A stretch of DNA of 64,000 nt from Trichinella spiralis. Taxonomy: Eukaryota > Nematoda > Enoplea > Trichinellida > Trichinellidae. Shown here in pieces: positions 5,041 through 62,700 of this stretch (position 1 is the first letter of the stretch; every line of letters begins with the position of its first letter). Both the position numbers and the translations under genes were made by a program. The notes under the pieces are model-generated. The model did not search any database. It was not told the origin of the DNA and saw only the letters and a list, made by a program, of their open reading frames with translations. The stretch spans positions 11,344,741 to 11,408,740 of the forward strand of contig CM012955.1 of assembly GCA_000181795.3 (NCBI GenBank), read 5' to 3'.

Positions 5041-5042
5041 AG

Positions 5043-5588
5043 ATGATGGCTAATTGGAAGTTAAGTGTTATTCTTTGCAACAGTTTGGCTGTGCTTGTGT
5101 TTGTCGACGGTGGGGTGTTGAAAAGAATACGACGCGATGAAGCAGCGGCATTGTATCGACAGGATGAAGTCGAAATACCAGACGAAGCGATAATTCAACT
5201 GCCGTATGCAGTTTTTCCCGAACCAAATTGCGCATATTCAGTGCACGCTGGTGGACCCAGTGGTCCGTTGATCAATTCCATTTCTATCGGAGATCTTGTC
5301 TACCACAAATGGAGTTGTGCCACATCATCACAGTCGCAAAAGCTTTACTGCATCTCTGTGCATAATTGTACAGTTGGCAACAATCGCCGGATGTATCCAA
5401 TAATTGATTCGAACGGCTGCACTTTAGAACCGTCAGTTGTACCAAGCGTTACTTATCCTAACGATCTCGAAGGTGGAATTTTGAGCCATGCTTTTTCACT
5501 TGGATTTAGCGATCCAACGTTAGCTTTTCAGTGTAAGATTAAGTTGTTGATTAAAGAAAATGGCGTGTGTCCAAGAAAAAAATGTTAA
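5043..5588 (+). CDS. Secreted ZP-C-domain protein, cuticlin-like
   Basis: A single exon of 181 residues. Residues about 5-22 form a hydrophobic signal peptide (LSVILCNSLAVLVFV core). A basic RIRRDE stretch follows that could be a processing site. From about residue 61 the sequence matches the C-terminal half of a nematode ZP domain. Visible family signatures are C-YSVHAGGPSGPL, GDLVYHKWSC, ISVHNC, a DSNGC motif and FQCKIKLL, ending in C-PRKKC, with the expected paired cysteines. Known relatives (CUT and CUTL proteins) polymerise in the cuticle. The usual N-terminal ZP-N half and the C-terminal membrane anchor are absent. The start is supported by an acceptor two bases upstream. An AATAAA lies at 5679-5684. 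An unseen upstream exon carrying ZP-N is possible but would have to bypass this signal peptide. Confidence 0.8.
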   Translation: MMANWKLSVILCNSLAVLVFVDGGVLKRIRRDEAAALYRQDEVEIPDEAIIQLPYAVFPEPNCAYSVHAGGPSGPLINSISIGDLVYHKWSCATSSQSQKLYCISVHNCTVGNNRRMYPIIDSNGCTLEPSVVPSVTYPNDLEGGILSHAFSLGFSDPTLAFQCKIKLLIKENGVCPRKKC

Positions 5589-22300: not shown

Positions 22301-25300
22301 CGTTGATCAACCAAGTAAAGTTCCACTTTTAATTGTTGAATTAAATTTTACACTTATTTCATTCAAATTTAATCCACTGAACTGGTGTCTTTTTTCTTTA
22401 ATTTTTTAATTTAAGTATGCTTTGATTGTGCAATTTCGACAGTTATTTTTTACGCGAACTTTATATTGTTCTTTTCTTTTATTGTGTCTTGAATAAATTA
22501 AATGTAGATGATTCATTGACACAGGTTATGCTGTGGAAATTGTATGCGGTGCTATTGGAATTGTGATGCTGATCATGGCGGTTGTTAGTTTCATCTATTA
22601 TAGGTATGCTGCTGTATTTTTTTTTTCTTCTTCTTCTTCTTTTTGAATTCGAAGCTTTGATGCGTTATTGTTTCAGAAATCGTAAATATGAACAAGAACT
22701 TGCAGGTCTCATATGGAAAATCAATCCCAAAGAGATTCAATTTCATCCCTGTACAGGATATGACAATTTGGGCGGAAGTCGGGCAAGTTGATTTAGTGTA
22801 CTTTGCGTGTGGAAATTTCTCAATTCTCTCTCAACTCCACTCCAGCATTTATTCGCTTGTTACGCAAGTTGGTGCTGATAACTTTCTCGTTTAGGTAAGC
22901 TTGACTAGTCACGAGTCAGCGGATTTTTCATCTTGGATAGTTGATCCGCATGGTCTTGGTGTTTATCGCGGCTCATTGGTTGCAATAAAGGAAATTCGTT
23001 ACGCGAAGCGAACTCGTGAAATTACAAGAGCCACGAAAATTGAAATGAAAAAGGTTCAACTGTTGTGAATTTGCATCACGAATTATTCCAATTTCAACTC
23101 CCACCTTTCAGATGCGAAGTTTGCATCACGACAACGTGAACCGTTTCATAGGCATTATTGTACAGCCGAATTTCATTTGCGTCGTGCGTGAATATTGTGC
23201 TAAGGGAAGTCTTTTTGATGTTTTATTAAATGAAAATATCAAATTGGAAAATATGTTCATCGCGTCGTTTGTTGACGACTTGCTCAAAGTATACTCAAAA
23301 TGTGCGCAGTGTTATTTTGAGCACTTTTTTTAATGACGTGATTATTTTTTGAGGGCATGATCTATTTGCACGACTCAGAAATTCGGGTACATGGAAATTT
23401 GAAATCAACCAACTGCTGCATTACTAGTAGATGGTCTTTGCAGGTTTCAGACTTTGGCCTTAGTGAACTTCGCGAAGGGCAAATTTACATGTCACAAGAG
23501 AGTCAATTGATGGGTAAAATTCAGTTAGCATGCGAATTGATTGATTATTCGTTTGTAGTGGAATTTTTTTTTTGTCGCAGGACTTCTGTGGACCGCACCG
23601 GAACTGTTGCGAGAAAGTGTTGATCACATGCAACCGTGCAAAGGTACCCAACGAGGAGATTCGTATTCGTTTGGCATTGTGTTGCATGAGGTGTTTTCAC
23701 GCAACGGGCCGTTCGACGTTTATTACGAAGATTCGTTGAGCGGCGAAGGTAGATTTTGGACGGAGTTTGGACGTGACGTTTGATTGTGAAATTTATTTCC
23801 CATTTAGAAATCTTGAAAAATATCATACATACACCTTATTTTCGGCCAAGTCTCGCTCTTGTCGAATGTGACAAATACATATCTGACACGATGTTAGCGT
23901 GTTGGGATGAACGTCCCGAGTGCAGACCTGATTTTCGTCAAATTCGCATGCGTCTCAAAATGCTTTTCAAAGGGATCATGTAAGAATCAAAGGGTCAATT
24001 GTTTCGCAGAATAGGTTTTGCTAATTTCAATTTTGCAGGAAACAAAATATTATGGATCATATGATGGGAATGATGGAAAAGTATCAGAGCCATCTGGAGG
24101 AGTTGGTTGAAGAGAGAACGGAAGAATTGAAGGAAGAAAAAAAACGCACCGAAACTTTGCTTCATCGTATGCTTCCAAAGTAGGCTTTATGAAGTACAAT
24201 ATGGCCACAATTGTGGCCTTTCAATATATACATGTACATGTGCATGTTGTTGTTGTACATGTACGTGATTTATTCTGTTTGCCTATTATGAAGATTTATA
24301 ACTTTTAGAGTGGTAGCAGCTCAGCTCATGCAAGGCAGAGACGTCGTGCCGGAAACTTACGACTCGGTCACAATATATTTTTCTGACATTGTTGGCTTTA
24401 CGGCACTTTCCGCAGAAAGCACTCCTGTGCAAGTAAGGGCCTATAAAATGACTTTTATTTCCAGATGAGCGATTGATTATAAGCGGACGAAAATATTTGT
24501 AGGTTGTTGCATTTTTGAACGATCTTTATACACTTTTTGATCGTATTATTCGTCAATATGATGTGTACAAAGTGGAAACAATTGGTATATATACAGCTAG
24601 CCAGCTAGAATGATAGACAGATTGGCAGATTAGTATTGGAAAAAGTAAAATGCTTGTGAGGAAAAATTTTTTTAGGTGATGCTTATATGGTTGTCAGTGG
24701 CTTGCCAATTCGAAACGGTAACCAGCACGCAGGCGAAATAGCAACTATGGCATTGGAGTTGGTTGAGGCAGTAAAAGCGTTTCAGGTTCCGCACAAACCT
24801 GACGTGGCTTGTCTTCTTCGTATTGGAATCCATACGGGTCAGTGCATACGTGCTTCCGTATTGTAGAATGCTTATCGACGAATACCATTTGAAAAAATAC
24901 CTCTGATATTATTTGCAGGTCCTTGTGCCGCTGGTGTGGTAGGTAAAACCATGCCTCGCTATTGCTTGTTTGGTGATACGGTGAATACGGCTAGCAGAAT
25001 GGAATCGAACGGAATGCGTAAGTTTAAAAGTTCAAATGTTTTCCAAGTTGTTGTTTTTTTAGCGCTAGATATGTATGTTTTTGTGTGCAAAGTCTCTTTT
25101 CTGCCCCGTTTTGAATGTGTGTAACGGTTTCATTTTTAAAAGAAGAACAAGGTTTAGAAATAATAAAATATTTTTATTTTACAAAATTTCTGCGGTTTCA
25201 AAATGTTTCCAACGCGCAACCACCAACCTTTCATTAGTGGATTAGCTAACCGTTGGGCAAAATGCGTAATATATATTTCATTTGCACTCGAAAGTTCCTC

Positions 25301-27571: not shown

Positions 27572-28529
27572 CAGTTGTTCGTTCACGAGGACGACGAATT
27601 ACAAATGACGACAAATATGGACGATGAATTCCAACTGCAATGGAATTGTCCGAGCTATTTATTGCTGTACTTTTGAGCGCCTGAAATGCGCCCTGCACGT
27701 GCATGCCAAGTGTATTTTGCTTCTGTTGATTACTGTTGATTTTCGGGAAGAATCTCCCCGATTCACCCATGCCGGGCGCTACGCTTCTGAATACCGACCG
27801 ATCTGACCGCCCACTTTGCATTTGCATTTGCAATGATGAAAAAAGCAGACGGCTTCAAGTTATGAACAACGTTCTCTTTTTGAAATTGTGAACGTGAACT
27901 TTGTTTGTCTTGTTATTTATTTTTAGTTTGTTTTTCTTTTATGATTTGCTTTTTCATAAAACAATAGCAGTAAAAATTAAACATGTAAGGTGAATTTTTA
28001 CCTTTGGAAAAAGATATAATAACTATACATATAATTAATTCATCGATAATGTTTTTGTTCAAAAGAAAGAGCTTTTCACCAAAGCAAAACGTCTATTTCA
28101 TAATTATCGATTCTTTGAATTTGCTTTTTTGAATAATTTTCAATTACAATTTTATGAACAAATGTTGTAAAAAGATATGATAATGTATTATTTCTATTTT
28201 ATTTCACTTGAGAGAGAGAGAAAGAGAGAGAGAGAGAAAGGGAGAAAAAATATATGCACAATGATGCACAATACTGCAACAAACACAACAGTATGAACTA
28301 ACCAACTAAAATTAATGAAATGTAAATAAAGTTCATAATAAAAAAGCAAAAATGAAATTTAGTATTTAAAAGAATGAACAAAATCAAATTTGAAATAAAA
28401 AAATTACAATCAATATAAATAGATAAAAGTAGCTACAAAAAGTGCATGGAGAAGATAATATGAACAACAAACACTTCAACCGGAGGTTATTTTTTTCTGT
28501 ATGCTAGTTATACTGCTTAAAGTAACAAT
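27572..28529 (+). other. Cyclase 3' UTR and short intergenic spacer
   Basis: The 3' UTR follows the TAG stop. A canonical AATAAA lies at 28325-28330, about 0.75 kb downstream, and a GA-rich microsatellite at about 28210-28242. No other gene is seen before the duplicated unit begins. Confidence 0.6.
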
Positions 28530-28621
28530 GAAAGCAAGATTTTATTTACTGAAAAATATTCAGCATTTCTCGTTGTTTTTATCATGATATTCGCTTAAAC
28601 TTTGAGTACTTATTTTGAAAA

Positions 28622-28753
28622 ATGTCTGAGGTGCAATTACTGATCAAACCTGAACCGCCAATAAAATATAGCATGAGTCAATCGGCAATTAGAAATCAAA
28701 CGTCGTTAGCCCATCAGCAAACAGCCAATCACAAAAATGAGGTCAAATTTTAG
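28622..28753 (+). CDS. 43-codon ORF at the 5' part of duplication copy A
   Basis: An ATG-started frame encoding a hydrophilic peptide beginning MSEVQLLIKPEPP. The IKPE core fits the psi-K-x-E sumoylation consensus. In copy B a two-base deletion puts a stop after 15 codons (from 34124). That argues against a conserved function, or means only copy A keeps it. A CCAAT motif occurs just inside, so the region may equally be promoter sequence of the HMG-like gene. Confidence 0.2.
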   Translation: MSEVQLLIKPEPPIKYSMSQSAIRNQTSLAHQQTANHKNEVKF

Positions 28754-30505
28754 CGGGCTAAGCAGCATAAACCACTCATAACACTAATACCTACTATCAC
28801 AGCTGAACTGTGTTACAGATGACAGGGCAGAGCGACACCTACAAAAGGCCAGAAGTAACCTGATTGGTTATGCTGATGACTGGTCGGCGGACACAGAGGA
28901 GAAGCTAAAAAGCCAGCAGCGTAACAATGAGACAGTGGCGTGTGTGTGCTGCCGCGTCTGTGTATTATTAATTACGTAGTAAAACTGAACCTCCCTCTGT
29001 TATGAGTCGTGTTGATGATAGTAATAATGGGAACGAGCAGAAGTCCGCTACACATAGATGGCATGTATTACAATATAAATTTCACAAACAGCAACGCTGC
29101 CAGGCAATCAGTGTATTTAGCAGCAGTGACGCAATACCTCACAACTGAACTACTTGAAATGGCTATTGTTGTATAAAGTCTATACATGAATGACCACAGC
29201 ATCAGTTTAGCTATTCATGGAAACACAGAAATGAAATGATTTTTGAAAGGGTTGCTCAATGATCTTCAATGATGCTCAATAATCTTCAATGATCGCTTCC
29301 ACCAAGCAATAGATGTTATATATAAGGAGAAAGCTAACAAAATACGTTCTAGAATAGAAAAAAATGAATTAAAAATGTTTAAGAAAAGTGAACAATTTAA
29401 AGCAAATTTATAATTGCATTGAACACAATCACATTTAAATATTTATCTTGTGATGAACATATTTCTTATATACTACGTCCTATACATATTTGATTCATAA
29501 ATGCAGCTAGTAAATTGAATAATTAATCGTAATTATATTTTTGCCGATTCGGGTGTATGGTTTTTATTTATTTCAATGATTTTTAGGCAACGTCTGGAAA
29601 ATTTATGAATGCTAATGTTACTAAATATGTGGAATGTACAGACTCTCCTGGAAATGTTATCTGATAGCATTTTCATGCTTCAAATAATTCGAACAAATAA
29701 GAAGGCTAGAAACCACAGTGTCATTTTATTCTTGCTGACCAGAAAAGACTTACTGTAAATCAGTTTGTTTAAAGCGGTTTTGTCTATTGTTTGTGTCATT
29801 CTTTCCAGTGTACTGTTTTAATTTTTCTGTTTTATTATTTATTCACTGAATGCATTTCAGGTTACTCTTTTCTACCAGATTAACTTTGTAAAAGAAGTGA
29901 CGTATCCATAACAACTTCGAAGATCACTTCAATTTGTTTCGGACTGTGATATATTCATCATTTGTATAAGTTCATTTCAGCAAATTTACTCTTTATTTGC
30001 TGTCAGAGATACATTATTTGGGATACATCACTACAATATACTATTGTCAATTGAAAGGTAACTATAAAATACGGCTTTTATGAAATGATACCCATACGTT
30101 GTGATAAACGTTTTGATAAATTATTTATGTTCCTGTTTGTTTATTATACATAGGTCTTTAATTTCGTGCATAAGCCTATTTCATAAAATGAATTTTTAAT
30201 AATTGTGTCTCTGTTTTATGATGTTTTTTTTATTTTATGATGGCAATTTTTTTATTTTGAGGGGTTTCTTTTGTTGCTTTCCCATTTTATGCATTTGACG
30301 TTATTAATAGTTACTTTGATTTTTGAAGTCACTAAATTTTATTTTTTGTGTATTAAATTTTGGTTTTCTGCTTTCTATTAATAAGTTTATAGAAGAATGA
30401 AAATGTAGCATTCTAACTTGCTGAATGTTGAATTTAAACATTTCATTGCTTTAATTCTTGTTGTGTGTGTGCATGCTATTACATTGATCTTCACTAGGTG
30501 TCAAA

Positions 30506-31406
30506 ATGTCAGAAGCATATAAACCATGCATAAGTCCTTACCTATATTATATCAATTGGAATTTATCGAATTGCTCATTTGCGCTCACCGACTATGATTT
30601 TGAATGTGTTTTCCTAATGTGTGACCGAAAGTGGTTCAGCATGCCTTCTGATGAAAGGTTAGATTGGAAATATAAATGTAAAAATGACCCAACAAAATTT
30701 ACCCCTCATCCACTCTTGGAGAGATTAATCAGAGGAGTAAAAGGAAATGCTTTTGACGAACATCCTCCTATGTGTAAACATTATAAAGTAAGTTTATTTA
30801 TTTGTTTTTAATAACTATTTAATGAAGACAACTCTTTCCTATTTTGAAATTTTTTAAATTTTAAGACTTTTGCTACAAGTAAAATTATTACTATTATTTG
30901 TTTTTCCATCAAGGAACTTGAAGACTTGTCTTGTACTTGAGTGATAATTACTGAAATCAGTAAAAAAGGTGAAAACTCACTTCACTGAAATATTAAAAAT
31001 GATTTCATTTTAGATATAAACATTTATGAATAATTTGAGATGGAATTTAAAAAGTTTTGCATAATTATTACACCATTATCAATCAATCCAGGTAGTAAAT
31101 CATTTGGGCAGATGATTGGCCGGATAGCTAATCTACCAGTTAGTTTGCCATAAAGTTGAATAGATAGCTAATCAAAATCAGTTTGTGGGTATATATTGGA
31201 TCAGTCAGATGAATGGATTTTTAATTTAATATGATAATTATGATAATGATAATAATATAATGATAAGTGAATGTCATTAGTAGTGTATTTTATTTTTGCA
31301 TTTTTAAATTTTATTTTATCTCATTGTAGTAGAGTTTTGTATTTTTTCATTTTTAATAATAATAAGTTTCCTTTTTTAGAAAAATCATTGGTTCGGATGG
31401 ACATGA
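30506..31406 (+). CDS. Divergent HMG-box protein, copy A
   Basis: Two exons (30506-30787 and 31380-31406) joined in phase 0 give 102 residues. An acceptor (cttcactag) lies a few bases before the ATG. The donor is gtaagt and the second acceptor ttttttag. AATAAA follows at 31465-31470. Residues about 8-60 keep the spacing of an HMG box: SPYLYYINWN at the start, CVFLMCDRKWFSM in the middle (compare the usual W-x-x-(L/M)), and DERLDWKYKCKND in helix 3. HMG boxes bend or bind DNA, and the family is usually nuclear. Extra cysteines and the weak match make this a tentative assignment. The C-terminus ends KNHWFGWT. Its partner at 36006 shares only about half its residues although the surrounding DNA is almost identical. 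Confidence 0.6.
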
Positions 31407-31740
31407 AAGATATCCATTTGAGAAATCTGCTTGATGATAAAGAATGATGCTTACTTAGATATGGAATAAATGATTTTTCATATACTCTACTCACCTATAT
31501 ATAAATGAACAACCTACTGTGTTAAGATGTTATTGAAATTGTCATCAATTATTTGAAATTTTGATGCATTTTATTTTGTCATAATTATTTGTATATTCAT
31601 TATTATATATTAGCAAAGTTTTTAACATAGTGCTTCCAATGATGATCATGATCAATGTTTTTGATCTGTGACGACACTTTACCATAAATTCTCTCTTTTA
31701 ACTAATTTAATGTAATTCTGATTGTTTTGTTTAAATAAGG

Positions 31741-34031
31741 CTATACATAGGCTGATGCAGATAAATGTCGAACCAGATATTATTTTTGGCATGAAAAGAA
31801 AATTTATATGAATTATGAATTGTTTTTGAATTTTATATGAAAATTAAAAAAAATATCACTAAATGGAGAGAAAATCATCATCAAAAAGGAATGAACAGAT
31901 TAATTAAAAATATAAATATATAAAATATTAGAAACGAAAAATAATTTTTCATTTGATTAAATGAAATTGATAAAATTAATCATATGTGAAGTTCTTAATA
32001 AAAAGGTAAAAATGAAATTCATTATTTACAACAAATGAAGAAAATGAAATGTGAAATAACAAAAATTACTAGTAACATAAATTAATAAAAGTAGCCATGA
32101 AAATTATATATAGAAAATAATCTCAATATCACTTGGGCGGCGGATGGCATAACTGCAAGTCTTGTAGCTTGTAGTTCAAAAGACTCGAGTTCGAATCCCG
32201 ATGACGGATGAAAAATGTGATAGCGATTAATTGCCAGTGTTGATCTAATGATCAAATGCTGTGGCAATGATCGACCTACTCGAGGTGAAATACCGCTGTC
32301 CAAAGAAAAATCAATACACAGCATGCACTAGTTAGAAGTACGCAAAACGAGCTATCGCCTGTGTTAACGGGGCGAAGTTCTGATGCGATGACATCCGGTG
32401 AACTGACCGGTTGCCACTATTCCTAACAGCTCTGTGTTAATACAAGCCGATCTCAGGCCTCCTATATCGGAACTGGGAAATAAAGGAAAAGTACCTTTTT
32501 CTCATGATTTGAATATTAAAATTTGATATTTTGGTTTTGAGATTCGAAAGAAAACAAAATTTACTATTCGAGAAATGCATTGCAGTATCACACTGGATAT
32601 TGCGAAATCAAATTATTACATAAATTAACGAGTAGGGTACTGCAAAACAAAATTAGCTGCTGGTGAACACTAACCCATTTCCAAGATGAAGTAGAATACC
32701 AATAGTATTTTTCATCACTGTTTTATCCTTCATTATGTTCACTTTATTCACAATTTCTGAAAATATGCATAGATGCTTCTGTTCATGCATTCTGTTCCCA
32801 GAATTCATGCAATCTGATTCATAATTGACATTCTATTGTCAAAAACACCATTCAATGTATTTGTTTCATCAATTCTGTGCATAAGTACATTAATTTAATT
32901 GCATAATTCAATATTCACTTCATAGAAATTATTTTCAATAAATGATTCCCAGCAGAACAGTTTTATATAATTGACGTTTAATGTAAAGTGTAAATTCAAA
33001 AGTAGTGTTTCTTTCGATAGTTTCAGAAAAAAATACAGCAGCATTTGTATTACAAATTAACGAATTCAAAAATTATTTTGTGGCACGCTATATCTACAAA
33101 GCAAACAAACAACAAGGCACTGTCTAAAAAACTGCATAAATTGGCATGCACGCAAGGGCTTTTACCCTATGCTTCATTATGTTAAGTAACAGTGCTTTTC
33201 GTGACAGTTAAATTCAAATCACACCAAAAGCAGACGACCTACTACTTAATAACCCAAATTGCATGCAAATTTTTAATCGAATGCCATGCGTTTGTTTATT
33301 TAGCTTCAGTTGCCGTGGCTGTTGACTTGCGGTGTGCAGTGCATGCGCAAAGACTCTGTTTACACCGCGATAACGGACCAACAATGACGCAATAAAGACC
33401 ATGGTTTCTTGGTTGTTATTCTATTATTTCTTTAAATTTATTCATCTACATTTAGAAAAACATAAATAGAACGTGGACTTCAACGATTCTTTTGGTAGGT
33501 TGCATATTTTTTAGTTTCATTGTTATTTTTAATTACATTTTTAATATTATGCATTGATCTTGTAACCTAGCAGCATAATTTAAATATATACAAAACCGTG
33601 AGCAGACATAGAGCTATATTTTCTGGAAACCTTACGGTTAAATTGACAAATGGTTTACTGCCAATTTTTTTAGATGTCCGACAATTAGACCAGTAATCAT
33701 TTACAGATGTAATATATGTATATGGTGTTTTAATAATTTAGATTGTTGTTCATCGTAAATTGAAATACTCATATCGCATTGTGAAGATGAAACTCGAAAT
33801 TATTTTCGTAAAAAGACATTATTCATTGTTACATTTCACTTCAGTTAACGAGAGGGTTGTATTTCAAATATGCAAATCATGTTTTACTAAAACGTTTGTG
33901 TTATCAGTAACAAATTGCTTATTCTCTTAACTGCTGCGCTGTGGCTACTGATAGCGTTAGACAACGTTCAGCTGGTGTAGTTTATTCCCAGTAATTTCAG
34001 GCTAACTGACTGCAGCGACTGAACAACAAGC
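31741..34031. other. Unique spacer between duplication copies
   Basis: AT-rich DNA without a supported gene. It carries the SINE-like element at 32132-32491. The remainder shows no matching sequence in the window. Confidence 0.5.
32132..32491 (+). mobile_element. Probable tRNA-derived SINE
   Basis: The head resembles a tRNA gene: an A-box-like tggcataactgcaag, and a B box gagttcgaatcc inside an imperfect T arm. An AGTCTT/AAAGACT pairing stands where the anticodon stem would be. It is followed by about 280 bases of much more GC-rich sequence than the neighbourhood, with a CCGGT..ACCGG hairpin. The tail is A-rich (gggaaataaaggaaaa). This is the architecture of a Pol III-transcribed SINE. The anticodon loop is too long for a working tRNA. 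The exact ends and any target-site duplication were not identified. Confidence 0.5.
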
Positions 34032-37000
34032 GAAAGCAAGTTTTTATTTACTGAAAAATATTCAGCATTTCTTGTTGTTTTTAACATGATATTCGCTTAA
34101 ACTTTGAGTACTTATTTTGAAAAATGTCTGAGGTGCAATTACTGATCAAACCTGAACCGCCAATAAAATAGCATGAGTCAATCGGCAATTAGAGATCAAA
34201 CGTCGTTAGCCCATCAGCGAACAGCCAATCACAAAAATGAGGTCAAATTTTAGCGGGCTAAGCAGCATAAACCACTCATAACACTAATACCTACTATCAC
34301 AGCTGAACTGTGTTACAGATGACAGGGCAGAGCGACACCTACAAAAGGCCAGAAGTAACCTGATTGGTTATGCTGATGACTGGTCGGCGGACACAGAGGA
34401 GAAGCTAAAAAGCCAGCAGCGTAACAATGAGACAGTGGCGTGTGTGTGCTGCCGCGTCTGTGTATTATTAATTACGTAGTAAAACTGAACCTCCCTCTGT
34501 TATGAGTCGTGTTGATGATAGTAATAATGGGAACGAGCAGAAGTCCGCTACACATAGATGGCATGTTTTACAATATAAATTTCACAAGCAGCAACGCTGC
34601 CAGGCAATCAGTGTATTTAGCAGCAGTGACGCAATACCTCACAACTGAACTACTTGAAATGGCTATTGTTGTATAAAGTCTATACATGAATGACCACAGC
34701 ATCAGTTTAGCTATTCATGGAAACACAGAAATGAAATGATTTTTGAAAGGGTTGCTCAATGATCTTCAATGATGCTCAATAATCTTCAATGATCGCTTCC
34801 ACCAAGCAACAGATGTTATATATAAGGAGAAAGCTAACAAAATACGTTCTAGAAAGGAAAAAAATGAATTAAAAATGTTTAAGAAAAGTGAACAATTTAA
34901 AGCAAATTTATAATTGCATTGAACACAATCACATTTAAATATTTATCTTGTGATGAACATATTCCTTATATACTACGTCCTATACATATTTGATTCATAA
35001 ATGCAGCTAGTAAATTGAATAATTAATCGTAATTATATTTTTGCCGATTCGGGTGTATGGTTTTTATTTATTTCAATGATTTTTAGGCAACGTCTGGAAA
35101 ATTTATGAATGCTAATGTTACTAAATATGTGGAATGTACAGACTCTCCTGGAAATGTTATCTGATAGCATTTTCATGCTTCAAATAATTCGAACAAATAA
35201 GAAGGCTAGAAACCACAGTGTCATTTTATTCTTGCTGACCAGAAAAGACTTACTGTAAATCATTTTGTTTAAAGCGGTTTTGTCTATTGTTTGTGTCATT
35301 CTTTCCAGTGTACTGTTTTAATTTTTCTGTTTTATTATTTATTCACTGAATGCATTTCAGGTTACTCTTTTCTACCAGATTAACTTTGTAAAAGAAGTGA
35401 CGTATCCATAACAACTTCGAAGATCACTTCAATTTGTTTCGGACTGTGATATATTCATCATTTGTATAAGTTCATTTCAGCAAATTTACTCTTTATTTGC
35501 TGTCAGAGATACATTATTTGGGATACATCACTACAATATACTATTGTCAATCGAAAGGTAACTATAAAATACGGCTTTTATGAAATGATACCCATACGTT
35601 GTGTTAAATGTCTTGATAAATTATTTATGTTTCTGTTTGTTTATTATACATAGGTCTTTAATTTCTTGCATAAGCCTATTTCATAAAATGAATTTTTAAT
35701 AATTGTGTCTCTGTTTTATGATGTTTTTTTTATTTTATGATGGCAATTTTTTTATTTAGAGGGGTTTCTTTTGTTGCTTTCCCATTTTATGTATTTGTCG
35801 TTATTAATAGTTACTTTGATTTTTGAAGTCACTAAATTTTATTTTTTTGTATTAAATTTTGGTTTGCTGTTTTCCATTAATAAGTTTCTAGAAGAATGAA
35901 AATATAGCATTCTAACTTGCTGAATGTTGAATTTAAACATTTCGTTGCTTTAATTTTATGTTGTGTGTGTGCTTGTTATTACATTGATCTTCACTAGGTG
36001 TCACAATGTCGGAAGCAGTTAAAATACCCGTAACTCCTTACGTATATTATCTCAATTGGAATCTAGCAAATTGCCCATTCGCGATCACTGACCGTGATTT
36101 TGAATGTGTTTTTCGAATGTGTGACCGAAAGTGGGACAGCATGTCTCTTACTGAAAAGCAACCATGGATGGATAAATGTTATGATGATAAAAAACCATTT
36201 GTCGCTCATAAACTCTTAAATGAACTAATGGAAAAAGTAAAAAAAGATGCTGCTGGCGAACATCCTGCTACGTTTAGGCATGCTAGACCTTCTCCAGTAA
36301 GTTTATTTATTTGTTTTTAATAACTATTTAATGAAGACAACTGTTTCCTATTTTAGAATTTTTTAAATTTTAAGACTTTTGCTACAAGTAAAATTATTAC
36401 TATTATTTGTTTTTCCATCAAGGAACTTGAAGACTTGTCTTGTACTTGAGTGATAATTACTGAAATCAGTAAAAAAGGTGAAAACTCACTTCACTGAAAT
36501 ACTAAAAATGATTTCATTTTAGATATAAACATTTATGAATAATTTGAGATGGAATTTAAAAAGTTTTACATAATTATTCCACCATTATCAATCAATCCAG
36601 GTAGTAAATTATTTGGGCAGATGATTGGCCGGATAGCTAATCTACCAGTTAGTTTGCCGTAAAGTTGAATAGATAGCTAATCATAATTAGTTTGTGGGTA
36701 TATATTGGATCAGTCAGATGAATGAATTTTTAATTTAATATGATAATTATGATAGTGAATATCATTATTAGTGTATCTTATTTCTGCATGGTTAAATTTT
36801 ATTTTATCTCATTGTAGTAGAGTTTTGTATTTTTTCATTTTTAATAATAATAAGTTTCCTTTTTTAGAAAAATTATTGGCGCGGATGAACATGAAAGATA
36901 TTTGTTCGAGATATCTGCTTGATGATAAAGAATGATGTTTATTTAGATATGGAATAAATGATTTTTCATATACTCTACTCACCTATATATAAATGAACAA

Positions 37001-37228
37001 CCTACTGTGTTAAGATGTTATTGAAATTGTCATAAATTATTTGATATTTTGATGTATTTTATTTTGTCATAATTATTTGTATATTCATTATTATATATTA
37101 GCAAAAGTTTTAACACAGTGCTTCTAATGATGATCATGATCAATGTTTTTGATCTGTGACGATACTTTACTATAAATTCTCTCTTTTAACTAATTTAATG
37201 TAATTCTGACTGTTTTGTTTAAATAAGG
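34032..37228 (+). repeat. 3.2-kb direct duplication, copy B
   Basis: Second copy of the unit at 28530-31740 in the same orientation. Differences outside the coding exon are single substitutions and small indels, such as a two-base loss in the 43-codon ORF and a shorter AT-repeat near 36745-36770. Confidence 0.9.
36006..36888 (+). CDS. Divergent HMG-box protein, copy B
   Basis: Two exons (36006-36296 and 36868-36888) give 103 residues with the same intron position and phase as copy A. AATAAA is at 36953-36958. The HMG-like pattern is clearer here: TPYVYYLNWN, CVFRMCDRKWDSM, then LTEKQPWMDKC, which resembles the usual D-x-E-K-x-P-[WYF] element. A basic tail follows (EKVKKDA). A base change in exon 2 makes an earlier stop than in copy A, so the end is KNYWRG. 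About 49 of 94 aligned positions match copy A. Changes are concentrated on amino-acid-altering sites, while EHP, DFECVF and CDRKW are kept. Both copies have intact frames and splice sites, so both look functional. Confidence 0.62.
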
Positions 37229-38011
37229 ATGTACAGACGCTGTTATACTTTCAAATACTGCATGCTTATTGGTAATAGAAGTAGTACCCTAGAAAATTAG
37301 AAATAAAAATTCCTAGAATCCTCTATTGATACGTACAGAAATTTCTTTCATGGAATTCAGGTTCAAGTTTCATTCAACCGTCTTACCGATTTGTTATTTT
37401 CATTAATGCAACTTGTTGAAATTCACATGTATTTGCCAATTTTAATATTTTTCACAGTATTTTACGGGCATCATTGAAAAAGAGTGTTTTTTTTAATTTC
37501 AAACTAGCACGCACCTAACATTTATATTAACAAAGAATAATATTGTTTATTACACTATGGGATGAGCGAACTGTAAATTTCTGAAGTACAAGTATTGAAC
37601 AAACGGCGTTTAATAAATAACGCTGTAACTTATTGGTTGTTGTATGATGAATCTTCTTGCAGAAATTAGTACCAGCTAACTGAAGCTCAACATCACATTA
37701 TCTGTAACGTTAATATGAAAAGATCATTAATACAGTGGAAAGTAATAAGTAGAACATCAGAAGTAAAAGACCTGAAAAATATATATTCAACAGTTAAACA
37801 TGAAAACTTAGAATTTTTTAAAATCTCTAGAATATATTAAGGCTGTTTGAACTCGTTAACTGTGTTTTTTGTTTCATGCTATTTTTAATTCAGTTTTGCT
37901 TTCATGAATATGTTTTAAATCATACGTTATCATTATTAAATTGCACACAGATTTGTTTTAAAATTTATTCCCATAATTTATACTTCTCATACAGACTGTT
38001 CTGTTTGAAAA
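37229..38011. other. Intergenic DNA right of duplication copy B
   Basis: No gene seen. Near its right end it includes the AATAAA (minus strand, 37969-37964) that would serve the microprotein at 38012-38212. Confidence 0.5.
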
Positions 38012-41447: not shown

Positions 41448-42791
41448 TCAGTTGGACTGTGGGAACGGTGGCAAGGGGTTGAGTGAGAATGTCGGATTGT
41501 GCGGCGACATGCGTGCCATGGTCAACTGGACTGGCGGACGGTTGCTGGACAAATAGTCAGCCGGTGAGCGAGCAAAATGTTGATGATGCTCCAGTTGATG
41601 CTGCTGCTGCTGCTGATGGTGGTGGTGGTGGTGGTGCTGCTGGTGCTGCTGCTGAAATGCAATGCTCTCTGGAACCGGGACGGATAATCGCGGCGAAGTC
41701 ATGCGCTTCTCCTTTTGCCTGCGATTGCAGAACCACACCCGCACCACTTCTTTTTCCATCTGCAGCGATTCGGACAGTTTGGAAATTTCCGGCGCCGTCG
41801 GCTTGGGACATTTGACGAACTGTTGCTCCAAGACAGCTTTGACTGAACTATCGATCGATGTTCGCTTTTTCCGCTTGCGACCGTGGGCGTTGATTTTCTC
41901 GACTGGATTCTGGCTGCAGACGGAATTGTCCGCTTCTTCGAGCCACTTCTGCAGCAACGGCTTCAACTTGCACATGTTTTTGAAGCTCAGTTGCAAAGCT
42001 TCGAACCGGCATATCGTGGTCTGGCTGAACACGCTGCCGTACAGCGTGCCCAGAGCCAGGCCCACGTCGGCTTGGGTGAAACCGAGCTTGATCCGGCGCT
42101 GTTTGAACTGCCTGGCGAACGCTTCCAAATTGCTGACGTCTATTTGCCCCTCATCGCCCCAACTCATCTCGGTCGGCTGCACGCACGAGCCGAACTCGCC
42201 GGCCGCAAACGGTCGACAAGGGCGTCGGCCCGCGTACGTGTCCACCAAGCCCAACCGGCGCGTTTCCAACGGCACCACCGGTAAGTGCTGACTAGCATGA
42301 TGGTGGTAAGCCACCGGCGAATGCGGGACGGTGGTGTTAGCAGCGGCAGCCGCGGCCGCGGCCGCAGCCGCCGCCGCAGCAGTCGAATTCAAATAGTACT
42401 GGTTCCAGGCGTTGCCGTAGTGTTGGGGCAGTTTGGCTAGTATTTGCTGCGTCGGGGGCTTCATCAGATCCGCCGCGGCCGCCGCTGCTGCTGCTGCCGC
42501 CGCCGCCGTGCTCGACGAACTGCAGCCGTAGTCCCACTGGCCACTATCCAGACTGGCCAGTGGCCACTGGGACGAAGCGAAAAACGGCGGTGTCGCCTGA
42601 TAAGGCATCCAGCAATTTTCCGCCGCCGCCCCTTGCTGCAAATCACCACTTTTCCCTTGTCGTTCAAGCTGCGGTGGGTCTGAGCACAAAGCGACCACAA
42701 TTGAAGAAGCCGATGACGACGACGACGACGACACTGACGACACCGACGGCACTGATGGTACCGACGAAGGCACAATCCCCAAATTGGACAT
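41448..42791 (-). CDS. ceh-6: Class III POU-homeodomain transcription factor
   Basis: An intronless 447-residue frame. The POU-specific domain spans about residues 217-287 ([58 protein letters not shown]). A short linker precedes the homeodomain at about 304-364, with [10 protein letters not shown] at its start and the DNA-contacting helix [14 protein letters not shown]. These signatures are those of class III (vertebrate BRN1/2/4 and OCT6, fly Vvl, nematode CEH-6). Members bind octamer DNA and act in neural, epidermal and excretory cell fate. The N-terminus has Ser-rich and two poly-Ala tracts (12 and 14 residues); the C-terminus has mixed poly-Gln/His. Lack of introns and high GC set it apart from its neighbours; intronless class III genes are also usual in vertebrates. 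Confidence 0.93.
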
Positions 42792-45700
42792 ATGTCTAGC
42801 CGAGCGGGTTGAATCTCATCAGATTTGTTATTGTTGTACAACGGAGAGAACAAGCCTAATGCCAGCAGTACAACGACGACAATCGTAACAAATAGCACTG
42901 CACCAGATGGCGCTTTCGATGCAAAGTCGAAATCGTCTGAGACTGGCTGTTCAGCGGCCAATTATTGATACGCTTTTATGCTAAAACGCTGGACGTAATT
43001 TCCTCTTCTGTACGTTTGCTGGTTTAACTGTACAAAATACCACGCTACGAATTCATCAATAAGTAGTGCAACAAGCTTGCCAAACCAACCTTCGATGTCG
43101 TCGAAATTTGCTGACCAACAACCGAACTGAATTTCCACACGCCGGATAATTTCGTCTTAAAACTGCAATTGGAGAAATTTTGAATGGAAGCTGAAAAATA
43201 AGCTCCCAACATTTATTTCAAAAGTTTCAACATCAATGGGAAACTGTTTACGCAATTTGAAAATTGATTTCACCAACGATCGTCAATATTATGCGTCATA
43301 CTCGAAATGGCGGGAATTTGCTCAATCTCCCTCTCTCTCTCCTCTCTCTCTCTCTCTCTTTCCACCAACACATTATACTGTATGCCTAGATATCTGATCT
43401 AGCTTTAAAATTTTCTTGACAATCTTTTACTGATGAAAGATTCAACTTGTGTTCATTTTCATATTTTGTAAATAAGCTAATTGTGATAATATGAAATTAT
43501 TGTTTGCAATTTTGATTTTTTATTCCAAATATCGCACCGATTGAATCATCGATGATAAATTGCTAGGATTTTGATGCAATTTTACAAAAATGTGTCACGA
43601 CTGCTAAAACCTATACCAAAAAAAAACATCAATAAAGTGATTCAGTTATACACTGGCTGAGATCATCCTTATACAAATGTTAATCACAAATCTGTCATGA
43701 TGATTGTTTGCTTTTTGTTTTTTTTCAACTCTACACCAAGAAAAACCACTCAATTATGAAGTGAAGTAATAATACGAGCAAGAAGAAAGCAAACAAACAC
43801 GAGCAAATTGTTCAACATAATTATGCTAATGTAAATTGGAGATGATGATTTTATGCAAATAAAATATGAATTCAGTTCAAGTCAACTATTTATTCACTGA
43901 TACACATTAAACAGCATCATTCCAATAAACGACTGCATGTGCAATTAAATGGAGAATTTTCATGATTTATCTTTTAATCTATTGTCGGTAAGCGTGATTT
44001 GTTTGCATGACATTTATTACTTTTAAAAAGCTTTTCCACAATGTAATTTTTTGTTTATTTCTTTGTTGTTTGTCTTTATTTTCAAAATATATTCAAGCTT
44101 TACAAATGCAGTCGTTCAATGCAGCGATTGTAGCTGTGCAATTCTTTTTTTTCGCATCTTACTTTATATCACTTGTAACAAAGGGTGTGGACAGAATTTT
44201 TTTTTGTTCGTCACTAGTCTCTTAGTCATTCGCATTACGCAGTGTGTTTTCTTTTATGTTCGATGTTTACTTTTCCATCGCTTCATACTGAATGAAAACA
44301 AAAATGCAAAATAGAAATTTTAATTGACAACGTTATACTGTAGAGTCGTTTGAAAATTTTCTAATTTTACCAATCACTTTCACATTTTTACAAATAAAAA
44401 ATCAACGCAATAATTTTTTCAAATCCTAATAAAATACTTCAAAAAAAATTCAAGAAAAAAATTACTATAAAACTTGGTGATTTGAACGCAACCAGTTGAT
44501 TTTTGAAATACATGTTTTACAAAATTTAAAACATTGAAGATAGAAAACAAAAAAGTATTTTTGATCCATTGTCTGCTGATTTTGAACATAAAAATTTATC
44601 TGAAAGAATATCAGTGATTTACAGCTAGTAGTTGTTCATCGACAACGTTGTGTACAATCTTTCCAATTCACCATCACATTTTTGCAAATATATTTCTAAT
44701 AAAAGAATGTGCCAGATAAACAATAGTTTTCATCTTATCCAGTTTTTTACAAATTTCACACATCGCAAATTTTTTTTGCTTTTTTAAATTCTTTCTTTTC
44801 AATAGCAAAGTTGCAAAGCAAAGTAGGAAAATTTTTTGTCAGTTGAAAATTTTCAGCTTTTAAAAAATACTTAATATTATTTTTTTAATGTTCTAGACAT
44901 GATTCTAATGGATTTTTTTAAATGTCGATATTTTTCATCAATATAATTTTAACAGTTGACAAGTAAATTGATATAAAAAATTATGATTTTCAAGTTATTT
45001 CTGTTCTGACGCAATGCTGATAACATTTTTCTCTAACATCTTTAAATCGTATCATTAGGTATGCTGAGCAATTAAAATATAAAAATTGACTGTTTTATTT
45101 TGAAATTTAGGCTTCTACTTTTTAATCAGAAATGTTTCTTTACAAAGTGACGCATCGTTGGAAAATTTAATTTCTACAGTATGATAATTTTAAAGAGTTA
45201 AAAGTATTATTATTTAAATTAATAAGTAACTGAAAAAAATCAATCAAATTAAATAAGCATAACAAAGTCACAGATGATATAATTATTTGAAATCGATTAC
45301 TAATTAAATTATAGTTTTCAGTATAAATTCATGCACGATAAATAACAAATACTGATGATGCTTGCGTATCCTTCAAATACTTAAATGCTTTATGTATATC
45401 TGTATAACTTGTGAAAAAAATTACATATTTTAACACTCCCGCGTACACGCTATTCGTGTTTATGCATGCTAAAAATTTTTCATTTTTTAAGGTAATTACT
45501 GCCTACTTGAAATAAATGATGATGCACATATGCGACAAATAATTTTTTGACTACGTTAACTAAAAATAATACAAATAAGTATTTTAAGTAAATTAATAAT
45601 TAAAACGAGAGTTTTTTAATGAAAAAACTACAGTTTTATAATAAAAATAAAATTTTAATCAAACTGATCAGCGCAGAAAATTCTAGCCTGCAAATCTATA

Positions 45701-45866: not shown

Positions 45867-47694
45867 ATGGATTGGAACCAGCGATTCAAATTGTCATCCT
45901 TTATAAAGTTTGCTTTTGTTATGTTGCTCATTTTTTCACTGTGCTCACTGCGTTACGGGTTAGTATCCGACATGTATGATGTGCGAAGCGAAACCATCAG
46001 AAGATTAACAGACTACTTAACCCATGCGCGTGTTAACGGTGTGATATGCCGGCCATATTTTCTCGATGGTTTGACAATCTGCTTCGTATGTTACATCTGT
46101 GTGCATTAATAATTGTTGTATTTAGAAGATGCTTATGTTGTAAATTCGTTGCTTGTCCAGAACGTTTTCTACAGCAAGTTTTCGCAGTTCGGTTTCACAA
46201 GAAAGTTAGGTAAATGTGATTTTTTTGTTTCATATTTTTTATTATGGGATTTTTGTAATTTATTTGAGTGAAGTAATATTATTTGATGATGAATATTTTT
46301 TGTTTGTGTGGTGAATGTTTTAAAATGTTTCTTTTTTTTAATTTTAATTTAAATGAATTTTAGATGGTTTGTTTAAAGTGAATTTGAGCTCACCTACTTT
46401 TGAAGAATTACAACGTAAGTTCCAAGAAGTTAGCGACGGTGGACTGTATGTCCCTCGAAATTGTACATCTGTTGACGACGTGGCTATTATTATTCCTTAT
46501 CGTGATCGAGAACGCCATCTTCGTACACTTCTGCTTAATCTTCATTCTTTCTTAATTAGACAGCAACTTTATTACAAAATATTCATCATAGAAGAGGTAT
46601 GGAGTTCTATTAAATCAAGTATATATTTTTCCAATGTCACTTTTTGTCTTCAGGTTAAAAGGCAGACATTCAATCGTGGGAAGCTGATGAATGTTGGTTT
46701 TTTGGAAGCGATGCGACTGCATAATTGGACTTGCTTTGTTTTTCATGATGTGGATTTGTTGCCGGAAAACGACTTGAATTCTTATTCGTGTTTAGACACG
46801 CCGAGGCATTTGTCCGTAGCAGTTGATAAATTCAATTACAGGTATTTGAGAGAAGGTTTTATATTCTATTTCTCATCGTTTTGTGCATTGTTATTTACAA
46901 TTGATTAATCGTATATGTTCGAATGTTTGCTGTTTCTAATTAATTAATTAATTAATGACAAGAAGAAAGCGGAAACATTTCAGACGATCATGGATTTGAG
47001 TTGCTATTTTAAAGTCAGCATGCGCAAACAGAATTGTTAGTTTAGCGATGATGAACTGATTTTTCTCCCATGCTTGTTAATTTTGATGTTGGCATGCTTT
47101 TGAATTGATGGCAGGTGTTTGTAATTTATAATTTTGACATTCTTTTCCAATTTATCGTATTTGTCAAACGTTGCCAGTGTTCTGTGAAAGTTTAATTATA
47201 ACGTGCCGTTTTATAGACTACCGTACGCGTCGATTTTCGGCGGCGTGACTGCTTTGACTGCTGAACAATTTCGGCGCATCAACGGTTTCAGCAATGAATA
47301 TTGGGGTTGGGGTGGTGAAGATGATGATTTTTACATCCGGTAATTATGTTTTTAATTATATATTCACTTGAGTGAATATTTTTCGAAGAAGGGGATGTGT
47401 ATTTCTTCTTTTTTTTGTTTTAGAGTAAATTTGAAAAAATATATGGTTCATCGCCATTCGGAACAAATTGGCCGGTACAAGATGATCAAGCACAGTTCAG
47501 AATCGTTGAACGAAGCAAATCCGTGCAGGCATGGGTTGCTTCGTGAAACGTCGAAACGGTGGAGAATGGACGGGCTAAATTCCATCAGATATGCCATTTT
47601 GAATATTACCGAACATCAGTTGTTTACACGTATATTGGTGGATCTGCGCGAAGTTGTGTTGAGAAATGGAACCAGACGTATCTGTAAAGTGTAA
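45867..47694 (+). CDS. bre-4: Beta-1,4-N-acetylgalactosaminyltransferase (GT7), paralog 1
   Basis: Golgi type II enzyme expected to add GalNAc beta-1,4 to GlcNAc. Exons: 45867-46068, 46126-46209 (optional), 46364-46596, 46654-46841, 47217-47339, 47424-47694, giving 366 residues in phase. A signal anchor lies at about residues 12-32. GT7 motifs: IIIPYRDRERHL, FNRGKLMNVGF, the metal-binding FHDVDLLPEND, PRHLSVAVDKF, IFGGVTALT and WGWGGEDDD. The residue before FGG is Ile. In vertebrate GalT1 this is Tyr289, and Ile or Leu there favours GalNAc over galactose (established for the family). The exon 1 donor is weak: GTTTGA at 46069 is chosen because it matches the end of exon 1 in the paralog, and GTGTGA at 46039 is an in-phase alternative. 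AATAAA lies at 47838. Confidence 0.87.
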
Positions 47695-49739: not shown

Positions 49740-52698
49740 ATGGATGACAGTCAAGTTTACAGTAAAGAAGCACGTTGCGGCTTTACTTCATGGCCGCACT
49801 GTTTGCAGGTGACCTTCGCCAGCTTGTTGGTGTTGTGCATATTTTGTATTTACGTTTTGTATCCTTCAAATTCATTTTTGAACTTCCAAGACGATTTCAA
49901 GCAAATCACTTTATCATCATCACCGTCATTGTCCGTGTCGTTGTCGTCGTCGACACCGATAAATAGTAAAGAAATTTGCCGTCCGACATCGCTTCGTTAT
50001 GGTAAATAAATCGTTTGTTGATCTTGTGAAATATTACCAATTAATATAACTGATCACTTTGACGAAATGCCATGCAAATAATGGACCGAGTTGATGATTA
50101 ACACTGGGATTTACAATTAATTGATTATTCTACTGGGGTGTACGACTGTTGAACAATTGAAGTTTGCTTTTGGCACGCAAAATGCGCCGCTGCGTCGCTT
50201 ATTCCAAGCGTTGCAGTGGAATTTGAATAATATTTTTCACTGTGGTAAAACGCGCCCAGCCGGGAAGCTTTTTCTGCTTCGCTTTCAAGTGCTAGTAATT
50301 TGTCAGAAGAGAAAGTTTTTCCATTCAAATTTTACCACCGCTGCTCGTACTTTGAGCGGCATATTTCTCTACCACATTCACTGTATCTGTCCTATGTTGA
50401 CCGTTCATGGTCGCAACAACGGTGCAATTTGGTGCGCATATTCAATTATTGTCGACGAATTTATTACTTTGCCGTTGTTTCAATTTAAATTTAAATTTTA
50501 CTGAGCATTTTACACTAGTTTACTTTTTTCTTTTTTCGCCTTCATTTTCAATTCAGTTATCAACGATGTGCATCACACTGTAGTCAATTCTCCTCCCTCT
50601 AGCAACACTTCTATTCACTTCCACTCAGCAAATGCAATAATGTTCAGAAGAGCATGTATTCCAAATGTAGACATGTATAATATACATATGTGCAAAATAT
50701 TCAGTTCTTCTCTTTTTTCTTTCTTTTTCCCAATTTTTACAAACATCTCAACAATTTACATTCTTTTTATTTAACTTCTTTTTTATCCACTGATAAAGTT
50801 TTAATTTATAACTGAAAACAAAAATAAACAGTAATAATTTTAAAACTTCTCAGGCATGTGTAACATTTTATTCTTGTTTTTAAATATTATTATTACTCAT
50901 TCGACTTTTTATGATACTTATGTGCTGCATTTCAGCGGTAAGCTTTGCTTTTCAGATGTTTCAGTTCTGCACATGCGTTCCTCGGTTGCAATTTTGGTCT
51001 CATTTTAGCTTTAACTCTTTTTTTATTGCTCATTTATTGAAGTTTCTAATATTTCAACATGTTTCATGCTAAACAACAAATATATATATAGACATGTGTG
51101 TATGCATAATTGAACAACATAAATATTAATGCACAATTAAATGCTGCTTTTATTTATGAAGCCATTTTTTTTATGGCAATTTATGGCGGCGGCGGCAATT
51201 TTATGCTTTTCACAGTTGCTCACTTCCATTAAGCTGAAAACATCTGTTCTAATGGCTAGACGAAAGCTTCCAACGAACTCTGCACAATTCAACCTGTCTT
51301 TACAAAATGGATATAAAAGAAAGAAATAATACCCACTATTGCAATTATTTAAAAAATAATTATATCAACAACTGTTTCGACAAATAATAAAAAATTTTTC
51401 CTCTTTATTTGTTGTTGTTACATTATTTATTTAGATGGAAAATTGAACGTGAAATTCAGTTCACCAGAATTTTCCCAACTCGAAGCCTTGTATCCTGAAG
51501 TGAACAACGGTGGCAGTTTTTATCCACAAGACTGTATACCCCCAGACGATGTTGCCGTGATTATTCCTTACCGGGATCGTGACTTGCATCTCAGGACGTT
51601 TCTGCTAAATATACATTCCTTTTTGATGAGGCAAAAGTTGCACTATCAAATTTTCGTCGTTGAACAAGTAAGCATTCGTTGCTGGGCTGGTGGAGACGGT
51701 TGCAATTTTTCCCTAATTTCTCTGCTTTTTATTGTCGGCGTTTGTTGTTGTGATCACGTCTGCTTTTCAAGGTTGCAAATCAGACATTCAACCGGGGAAA
51801 ATTGATGAACGTCGGCTATGTGGAAGCACAGCGTTTGTTCAACTGGAGCTGCTTGGTCTTTCACGACGTCGACTTGCTGCCGGAGAATGATTTAAATCCA
51901 TACTGGTGTGTCGACACGCCACGTCATTTATCCGCGGCCGTGGATAAATTCCAATACAAGTACACTGTTATTTTTATAATAACGCCTATAAATAATAAAT
52001 ATTTATATAAGTCAATTTGTATATTGTGAAATACGGAAATTAAGTTTCGCTTGAATAGCTTGTTTTCAGACTTCCTTATCAGACAATATTTGGCGGTGTT
52101 TCAGCTTTAACTGCGTCTCAGTTTGAGGTGATCAACGGCTTCAGTAACAATTTCTGGGGTTGGGGTGGAGAAGACGACGACATGTATTCGAGGTAATAAT
52201 ATAAAATAAATAAATTACAGTTCTTTTTTTACCCACCCACCAACCCACGCACGCATTCATTCTACTTTATCAAATTCAGTCGCTGTGAACATTTTCTATA
52301 TTCTTTGTTTCGATCAAGCATCAACATCATTGCGAAAATTAATGATAAGTTTAATGGCAGTGATAAAAAATTTACATTGAAGCATGACAACAATTGAAAA
52401 ATTATTTTTCATATATTATTCTTTTAGGGTGTTGTTAGGTCGCTTTTCAGTGCATCGACATCCGGGAAAGTACGCACGCTATAAGATGATCAAACATCAA
52501 CAAGAATCAATGAATAATGCAAACGCTTGCCGATTTAATCTTCTGAAATTCACAAATATACTCTGGCGACGAAGTGGACTGTCCAATTTAAATTACCGTC
52601 TGCTCAACATTTCTGTAAACAGGCTGTACACCAAAATGACCGTTGATTTGTATGAAGAACAATCGCGAAGGGAGATTCGCAGATTTTGTGCAGGATAA
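49740..52698 (+). CDS. bre-4: Beta-1,4-N-acetylgalactosaminyltransferase (GT7), paralog 2
   Basis: Exons 49740-50001, 51435-51667, 51772-51959, 52070-52192 and 52428-52698 give 358 residues. The last four exons have exactly the lengths of those in paralog 1 (233, 188, 123 and 271 bases), which shows tandem duplication. A membrane anchor lies at about residues 21-42, followed by a Ser-rich stem. Catalytic motifs are intact: IIPYRDRDLHL, FNRGKLMNVGY, FHDVDLLPEND, PRHLSAAVDKF, IFGGVSALT and WGWGGEDDD. The donor-specificity residue before FGG is again Ile, predicting GalNAc transfer. Exon 1 joins exon 2 in phase across a 1.4-kb intron. I found no convincing equivalent of the extra 84-base exon of paralog 1. 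One acceptor is cttttcaag (AAG). AATAAA lies at 53134. Confidence 0.87.
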
Positions 52699-62284: not shown

Positions 62285-62700
62285 TATTTTTTTTTATCGC
62301 TTTTAACGTTCAATTGAATTGAATTTCTGAAATTATTGCTGTTAAATAATCATTAATTACTGCGAATCAAAGCGTAAGCGTCGCAAGTGTTCCCTTTGCT
62401 TAAAAGCACATTTCATGGAATATTGTCTTAATTGCCATAATTTTCATTGTTACGCATCTGAGTGATACCGATACCACATGTATGGCTATTTGAATGTACT
62501 TTCGCTACGCAGCAACTATGTAATGGCGATTTGCATAATTACTATAATATGAGGTCGCCCAGGGTTAAACATCATTGCAAATGCTAGGAAATTAAAGAAA
62601 TCCACTATTCATGAAATACTACTTTGCTCACGCACGGTAGCTCTGCGAATTTTCATGGGTATCCGGTAGTATGTACAGTTAAACTTCTTCCTGGATGTCA
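62285..62700 (+). repeat. Diverged direct repeat near window end, copy 1
   Basis: Matches about 63600-63985 at an offset near 1.3 kb. Shared blocks include gctgttaaataat.attaatt, tgcgaatcaaagcgta, and later ggttaaacat.attgcaaa followed by ctaggaaattaaa. No open frame is conserved between the copies. Confidence 0.5.

Follow-up and report, generated by a model that had tools for sequence, protein, structure and literature searches.

A tandem pair of HMG-box-like genes in Trichinella spiralis with a divergence peak in the main coding exon between nearly identical introns and flanks

The window, that is, the whole stretch of 64,000 nucleotides of Trichinella spiralis DNA analysed here, contains two tandem copies (A and B) of an HMG-box-like gene in which the main coding exon is strongly diverged and the surrounding non-coding DNA is nearly identical. 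It is very probable, in our opinion, that this pattern results from an old tandem duplication, interlocus gene conversion of the non-coding DNA and selection against conversion of exon 1, following a burst of protein divergence. The title of the original prediction stated that the coding exons "diverge far faster" than the introns and flanks. This wording is misleading, since it is the flanks that seem to have been reset.

Based on self-BLASTN and base-by-base alignment, unit A with gene copy A (28530..31754) and unit B with gene copy B (34032..37242), both on the plus strand, form one long match with 94.3% identity over 3,235 columns. The spacing of the units is 5.5 kb. The duplication itself had been correctly recognised in the original prediction, but the units begin about 2 kb before the start given there, and two further coding exons per copy were added to the main exon that it described. 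An assembly artefact, which had been considered as a possible objection, is unlikely, because both copies recur in another T. spiralis assembly, from which the records P0001 and P0010 stem, and both types occur in T. nativa (P0004 for B and P0009 for A, taken as neighbours in that species). The genome (53 Mb, 14 contigs) was searched for additional copies. Among the best candidates, the copy B protein gave two matches, the T. pseudospiralis protein gave the two copies and one match with an E value of 1.01, and the DNA of unit A gave the two units and 26 pieces of a dispersed repeat; no third paralog was found among them.

The dispersed repeat is located in the 5′ end of unit A (28599..28773, plus strand, established by the genome DNA search) and is also present in unit B. 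It has at least 26 partial matches elsewhere in the genome, which are 71–88% identical and lie in both orientations. The repeat is MITE-like, and a few of the matches form neighbouring inverted pairs. Self-comparison also detected a 150-base repeat just outside both edges of unit A (28307–28459 and 31971–32121, 78% identical), which may represent an older duplication edge or a dispersed repeat. Since a further copy of 28307–28459 lies elsewhere (G000:C3:10596345, 86% identity), this repeat was not used as evidence of an old duplication edge; the 31971 copy was absent from the matches listed in that search. The segment at about 32137–32215, with the B-box-like GTTCGAATCCC, presumably resembles the head of a tRNA-derived SINE. 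No tRNA gene was found in 28000–38000 using ARAGORN.

The coding model of copy B follows the annotated record P0001 and includes exon 1 (36006..36296, HMG-box-like, 97 aa), a 17-residue exon 2 (36549..36600) and a 22-residue exon 3 with the stop codon (36868..36935), all on the plus strand. Exon 1 of copy B is 100% identical to P0001 and P0002, and its same-type relatives are P0003, P0004 and P0005. In copy A, which is likewise encoded on the plus strand, exon 1 (30506..30787, HMG-box-like, 94 aa) is an open frame with the same-type relatives P0006, P0007, P0008, P0009 and P0011, and its first 51 residues are those of the T. spiralis record P0010. Exon 2 of copy A (31040..31091, 17 aa and one base) was placed on the basis of its homology to P0001, the annotated model of copy B, and exon 3 with the stop codon (31380..31447) was placed using the frame of P0001, P0004, P0006, P0007, P0009 and P0011. 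The full proteins consist of 133 (A) and 136 (B) residues. Upstream, intron 0 of copy A (30058..30497, plus strand, GT...AG in the sequence) lies between exon 1 and a 5′ exon ending at 30057, which is taken as untranslated. The partial record P0002 of T. spiralis uses the copy B splice that matches intron 0; in it, the 5′ exon is spliced just ahead of the ATG and is read as coding. It should be noted that three frames of exon 3 are open for some way, and that the annotated relatives show both the small exon 2 and the adopted frame. The record P0010 (68 aa) differs from the adopted model in the splice and in the exon 3 frame, and P0004–P0009 and P0011 vary among themselves in exon joining; these deviations are taken as probable model errors.

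Differences between the two copies are concentrated in the coding sequence. With gap columns and the outer 10–15 bases of the units excluded, 88 of 402 coding sites differ versus 57 of 2,774 non-coding sites (Fisher p = 3e-45), which bears out the earlier observation of a diverged exon within near-identical non-coding DNA. Along the units, A and B differ at 11/1,458 sites far upstream (0.75%), 1/58 in exon 0 and its neighbourhood, 17/439 in intron 0 (3.9%), 1 of the 8 bases ahead of the ATG, 77/282 in exon 1 (27.3%, plus a 9-base gap), 4/252 in intron 1 (1.6%), 2/52 in exon 2 (both amino-acid changing), 11/267 in intron 2 (4.1%, plus a 21-base gap), 9/68 in exon 3 (13.2%) and 12/292 in the 3′ flank (4.1%). 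According to the base-by-base alignment, the exon 1 peak rises at the ATG and falls off at the 5′ splice site, within a few bases in either case, and exon 3 forms a second, smaller peak beyond the 4.1% of the intron. In the exon 1 proteins, 50 of the 94 aligned residues are identical, a slight correction of the 49 of 94 noted initially. With about half of the residues changed, the contrast of 27% in the exon versus 0.75–4% outside it looks steep. Non-coding divergence rises nearer the gene, as seen from the far upstream part compared with introns 0 and 2 and the 3′ flank taken together (40/998 sites, p = 5e-8). However, the increase towards the exons is uneven, as intron 1, which lies between two coding exons, is little diverged.

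Under the codon model GY94, exon 1 has a dN of 0.428, a dS of 0.237 and an omega of 1.80, and omega = 1 was not rejected for it (likelihood ratio p = 0.12). For all exons together, omega was 1.70 (p = 0.12). Values of 0.02 and 0.04 for exon 1 dS were rejected (p = 8e-7 and 7e-5, respectively), the intron divergence being 1.6–4.1%. Since its dS is far above the intron divergence, exon 1 appears to be older than its flanks; judged by silent sites, it is probably older than the introns and not young and racing. Equality of exon dS and intron divergence with dN/dS below 1, which had been named as evidence against the original prediction, is not what these values give, and they also favour the branch of that prediction in which conversion homogenised the flanks. 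Based on the Nei–Gojobori method, exon 1 carries 12 silent differences in 53 sites and 65 replacement differences in 229 sites (bootstrap range of pN/pS 0.75–2.7), and a silent change is present in 8 of the 50 codons with an unchanged residue. Replacement changes in exon 1 thus seem to roughly match silent ones in frequency, or to exceed them.

Codon positions 1, 2 and 3 of exon 1 differ at 35, 29 and 13 of 94 codons. In neutral simulations, 13 or fewer third-position changes occurred in 1 of 2,000 runs from A and 5 of 2,000 runs from B. This deficit is not a clean proof of positive selection, because a shortage of conservative third-position residue changes may cause part of it. The same contrast in exons 2 and 3 (4, 5 and 2 of 39) was not significant (p = 0.33). 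The replacement changes are unevenly distributed over exon 1: raw pN and pS are 0.39 and 0.22 in codons 46–94 versus 0.16 and 0.23 in codons 1–45. By helix, as predicted in the B model, residue differences amount to 9/13 in helix III, 10/16 in the fourth helix, 3/11 in helix I and 3/17 in helix II. Strong diversifying selection, one of the two explanations offered initially, is consistent with the third-position deficit and the point estimate of omega, but the likelihood ratio and the result for exons 2 and 3 weaken it. Such selection is possible, mostly in the past, and falls short of a formal demonstration.

Relatives of both copies were drawn from a protein collection (5 of 5, 6 of 12 and 12 of 29 candidates returned). 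Copy-A types were found in T. nelsoni (P0006), T8 (P0007), T9 (P0008), T. nativa (P0009) and T6 (P0011), and they are 93–95% identical to T. spiralis A over 48–94 residues. Copy-B types were found in T. nativa (P0003 and P0004) and T. murrelli (P0005), with 87–89% identity to T. spiralis B. Copy A of T. spiralis has 5–6 differences in 91–94 residues from that of T. nelsoni, T8 or T9 (5/94 for T. nelsoni), and the distance between T. spiralis B and T. nativa B (P0003) is 11/97 residues, whereas the paralogs A and B of T. spiralis differ at 44/94 residues. For the non-encapsulated T. pseudospiralis, one type (P0014) was present among the records returned. It is about equidistant from both copies, with 44/94 residues different from T. 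spiralis A and 47/97 from B.

In the exon 1 tree (nine rows, built without the near-duplicate nat2_B and the short T6_A, and with a partial nat_A of 58 aa), the A types split from the rest with a support of 92, and the B types are united with a support of 99. The tree has a long stem (0.47 + 0.64 substitutions per site), from which T. pseudospiralis branches off, and short tips. This shape suggests that the burst of residue change occurred mostly on the stem, ahead of the living encapsulated species. A tree constrained to pair T. spiralis A with B is worse by 111.6 log units (AU p = 4e-43), and by this test a duplication that happened only in T. spiralis is rejected. With four A rows, four B rows and one outgroup, 28 fixed A/B differences were polarised: 7 are A-derived, 8 are B-derived and 13 are unlike the outgroup in both copies, and for this reason a one-sided acceleration is not claimed. 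The parts of PMC4740406 and PMC13334664 drawn on here date the radiation of the encapsulated species to about 7 and 5.6 million years and their split from the non-encapsulated species to about 21 and 18 million years, respectively. Since the exon 1 types are shared across encapsulated species, these dates indicate that the exon split predates the radiation.

One flank can be compared between species: three protein records extend through it for 37 codons, with three differences. Over this 111-base flank, which starts at 29861, no difference separates the two T. spiralis copies, each of which has a stop in the frame concerned. The three other records, T. nativa B, T. murrelli B and T9 A, all depart from the T. 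spiralis pair by the same three residues, and T9 A carries one additional residue difference. The flank is not split as the exons are, so within-lineage conversion would explain it. The exons group by gene and the one readable flank does not, which agrees with the earlier proposal that conversion homogenised the flanks while the exon escaped. Exon 3 of T. spiralis A has V as in T. nelsoni A, H and N as in T. nativa B, and L as in both B rows; exon 3 of T. spiralis B has Y as in the A rows of other species. Such a mosaic, seen with a single outside B row (P0004), is what occasional conversion would leave.

We suggest the following history for the pair. An HMG-box-like gene would have been duplicated in tandem ahead of the separation of the encapsulated Trichinella species, and proteins A and B would then have diverged strongly, chiefly in helix III and towards the C-terminus. 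Non-coding DNA would since have been transferred repeatedly from unit to unit by interlocus gene conversion. In T. spiralis, this conversion is likely more recent than the split from its relatives, and therefore the promoter-side DNA and the introns would look young. Conversions that overwrote exon 1 would have been purged by selection, because the two proteins may now do different jobs. Exon 3 is possibly less well guarded, hence its mosaic look. Both gene conversion as the exchange process, as opposed to repeated unequal crossing over, and selection as the guard of exon 1 are what we infer from these patterns. The three-part account covers nearly all of the observations, and its weak points are intron 1 and the thin flank evidence.

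The sharp steps at the ATG and the splice site, the point estimate of omega and the third-position deficit would also fit a scenario in which the gene was duplicated recently, in T. spiralis, and point changes in the exon were then driven by extreme positive selection. However, both exon types are present in other species, the pairing of T. spiralis A with B is rejected by the AU test, and exon 1 dS is several times the intron divergence; this reading is hardly credible. It is also conceivable that a third, more distant paralog, as DNA or cDNA, overwrote exon 1 of one copy before the encapsulated species split, and that the age of the flanks is honest. Such an event would yield divergence across the whole exon, including silent sites, with edges near the splice sites. 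Yet no third copy was among the best candidates in the genome, which leaves the original suggestion that the exon came from another paralog without support. Moreover, flanks at 0.75–4% would have to be at least as old as species splits of 5–7 million years, and the readable flank stretch has three differences between species and none between paralogs. We regard an overwriting paralog as very improbable.

The same very low probability is assigned to a strong constraint on the non-coding DNA, which would have remained alike without conversion while the exon was free to change. The promoter-side DNA is indeed near-identical for about 1.5 kb in both copies, but part of it is the dispersed repeat, and in one stretch the species differ and the two T. 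spiralis copies agree. The flanks could also have been homogenised by repeated unequal crossing over or re-duplication with retention of the exon. Tandem copies 5.5 kb apart are suited to this process, and it would leave young flanks too; on the other hand, only two copies were found among the best candidates, and an exon-sized island needs exchange on both sides, for which short conversion tracts seem simpler. Its chance is small, if slightly better than that of constraint.

The divergence-peak pattern in T. spiralis is real and of a kind already known in other animals. As described in the relevant part of PMC3924837, the red and green opsins of primates, with a peak in exon 5, are tandem paralogs whose introns are homogenised within species by gene conversion, while the functional exon remains distinct between the two genes and clusters with its orthologs in other species. 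In the opsins, two exon 5 residues carry most of the functional difference, whereas 44/94 residues differ in exon 1 of T. spiralis. For colobine RNase1, the same source reports an intron and UTRs diverged far less than the coding sequence, and a coding tree in conflict with the tree of the whole region. RNase1, as presented there, is a digestive enzyme of known role, and its independent duplication is contested, while the pairing of A with B is rejected here for T. spiralis. The portion of PMC7042247 on ruminant CEACAM32 describes the same divergence-peak signature; unlike the present pair, CEACAM32 is a member of a multigene family with Ig-like domains and has a known testis-specific expression. 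In snake three-finger toxin genes, according to the section of PMC2474615 consulted, the introns are highly similar and some exon segments are strongly different between paralogs. There, exon segments are switched among five genes; in T. spiralis there are two copies, with point changes and a 9-base gap, and each copy has its own relatives elsewhere.

No description of the T. spiralis pair was found among the matches listed in the Trichinella literature on the HMG box, maelstrom, gene conversion, duplication and selection. No paper was found for the gene name Tsp_05567, and the main text of PMC13334664 contains neither "HMG" nor "gene conversion". The pair illustrates how a comparison of two paralogs can point in the wrong direction: the exon gives the impression of hypervariability, yet more likely it is the flanks that were reset. 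With a single small exon as the target, a distance of 5.5 kb between the copies and available genomes of the encapsulated species, conversion and selection could be weighed cleanly against each other at this locus, as in a natural experiment.

The likeness of the proteins to the HMG box was assessed using PF00505, the curated cut-off of which is 25.4 bits. Copy A gave no HMG match and copy B reached 18.7 bits. Among the relatives, the B types of T. nativa (P0003) and T. murrelli reached 18.5 and 16.1 bits, respectively, T. pseudospiralis P0014 reached the cut-off with 25.4 bits, and no HMG match was obtained for T. nelsoni A and T9 A. Among the 30 places listed in the PF00505 search of the genome, copy B was the only one of the pair, and it was below the cut-off. 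With PF09011 (HMG_box_2, Maelstrom-type), P0014 and P0003 scored 15.8 and 14.5 bits, both under the cut-off of 22.4 bits, and neither copy A nor copy B was listed. The profile A2, built from seven sequences, matched NHP6A in PDB at positions 4–71 (E = 5e-4), and the other 10 rows had E values of at least 0.15. A Foldseek comparison of the models of A and B with PDB gave no match at E ≤ 0.001. DNA-binding and DNA-bending HMG boxes usually have a basic surface. The exon 1 product has a net charge of +0.7 and a pI of 7.6–7.7, and this near-neutral predicted charge does not speak for DNA binding. Nucleic-acid binding is a putative activity of A and B, suggested by sequence likeness. Tentatively, and with more against it than for it, A and B could be imagined as diversifying partners that act on chromatin or bind nucleic acids, for example to defend the germline genome or in sex-specific chromatin. 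Loss of the A/B difference would then be harmful in all encapsulated Trichinella, and selection would have shielded the exon of 94 residues from continual conversion for at least 5–7 million years, the time since the split of these species. On this reading, the pair might rank with the steepest exon-versus-intron divergence peaks. The locus also draws attention to an HMG-like gene whose two forms seem bound to stay different in a parasite lineage.

Several other open frames were detected in the window. A frame of 455 residues on the minus strand (41448–42815) contains a POU domain and a homeodomain, and the frames at 5001–5588 and 24660–24866 match the cuticlin C-terminal domain and the adenylate/guanylate cyclase catalytic domain, respectively. 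The frame at 46357–46908 matches the N-terminal region of glycosyltransferase family 7. It and the frame at 51353–51805 may form another tandem pair, of greater age, which could serve as a control for exon conservation of the ordinary kind. Based on self-comparison, the segments 46652–46844 and 51770–51962 are 73% identical, and a direct repeat with 71% identity is formed by 62293–62613 and 63596–63929.
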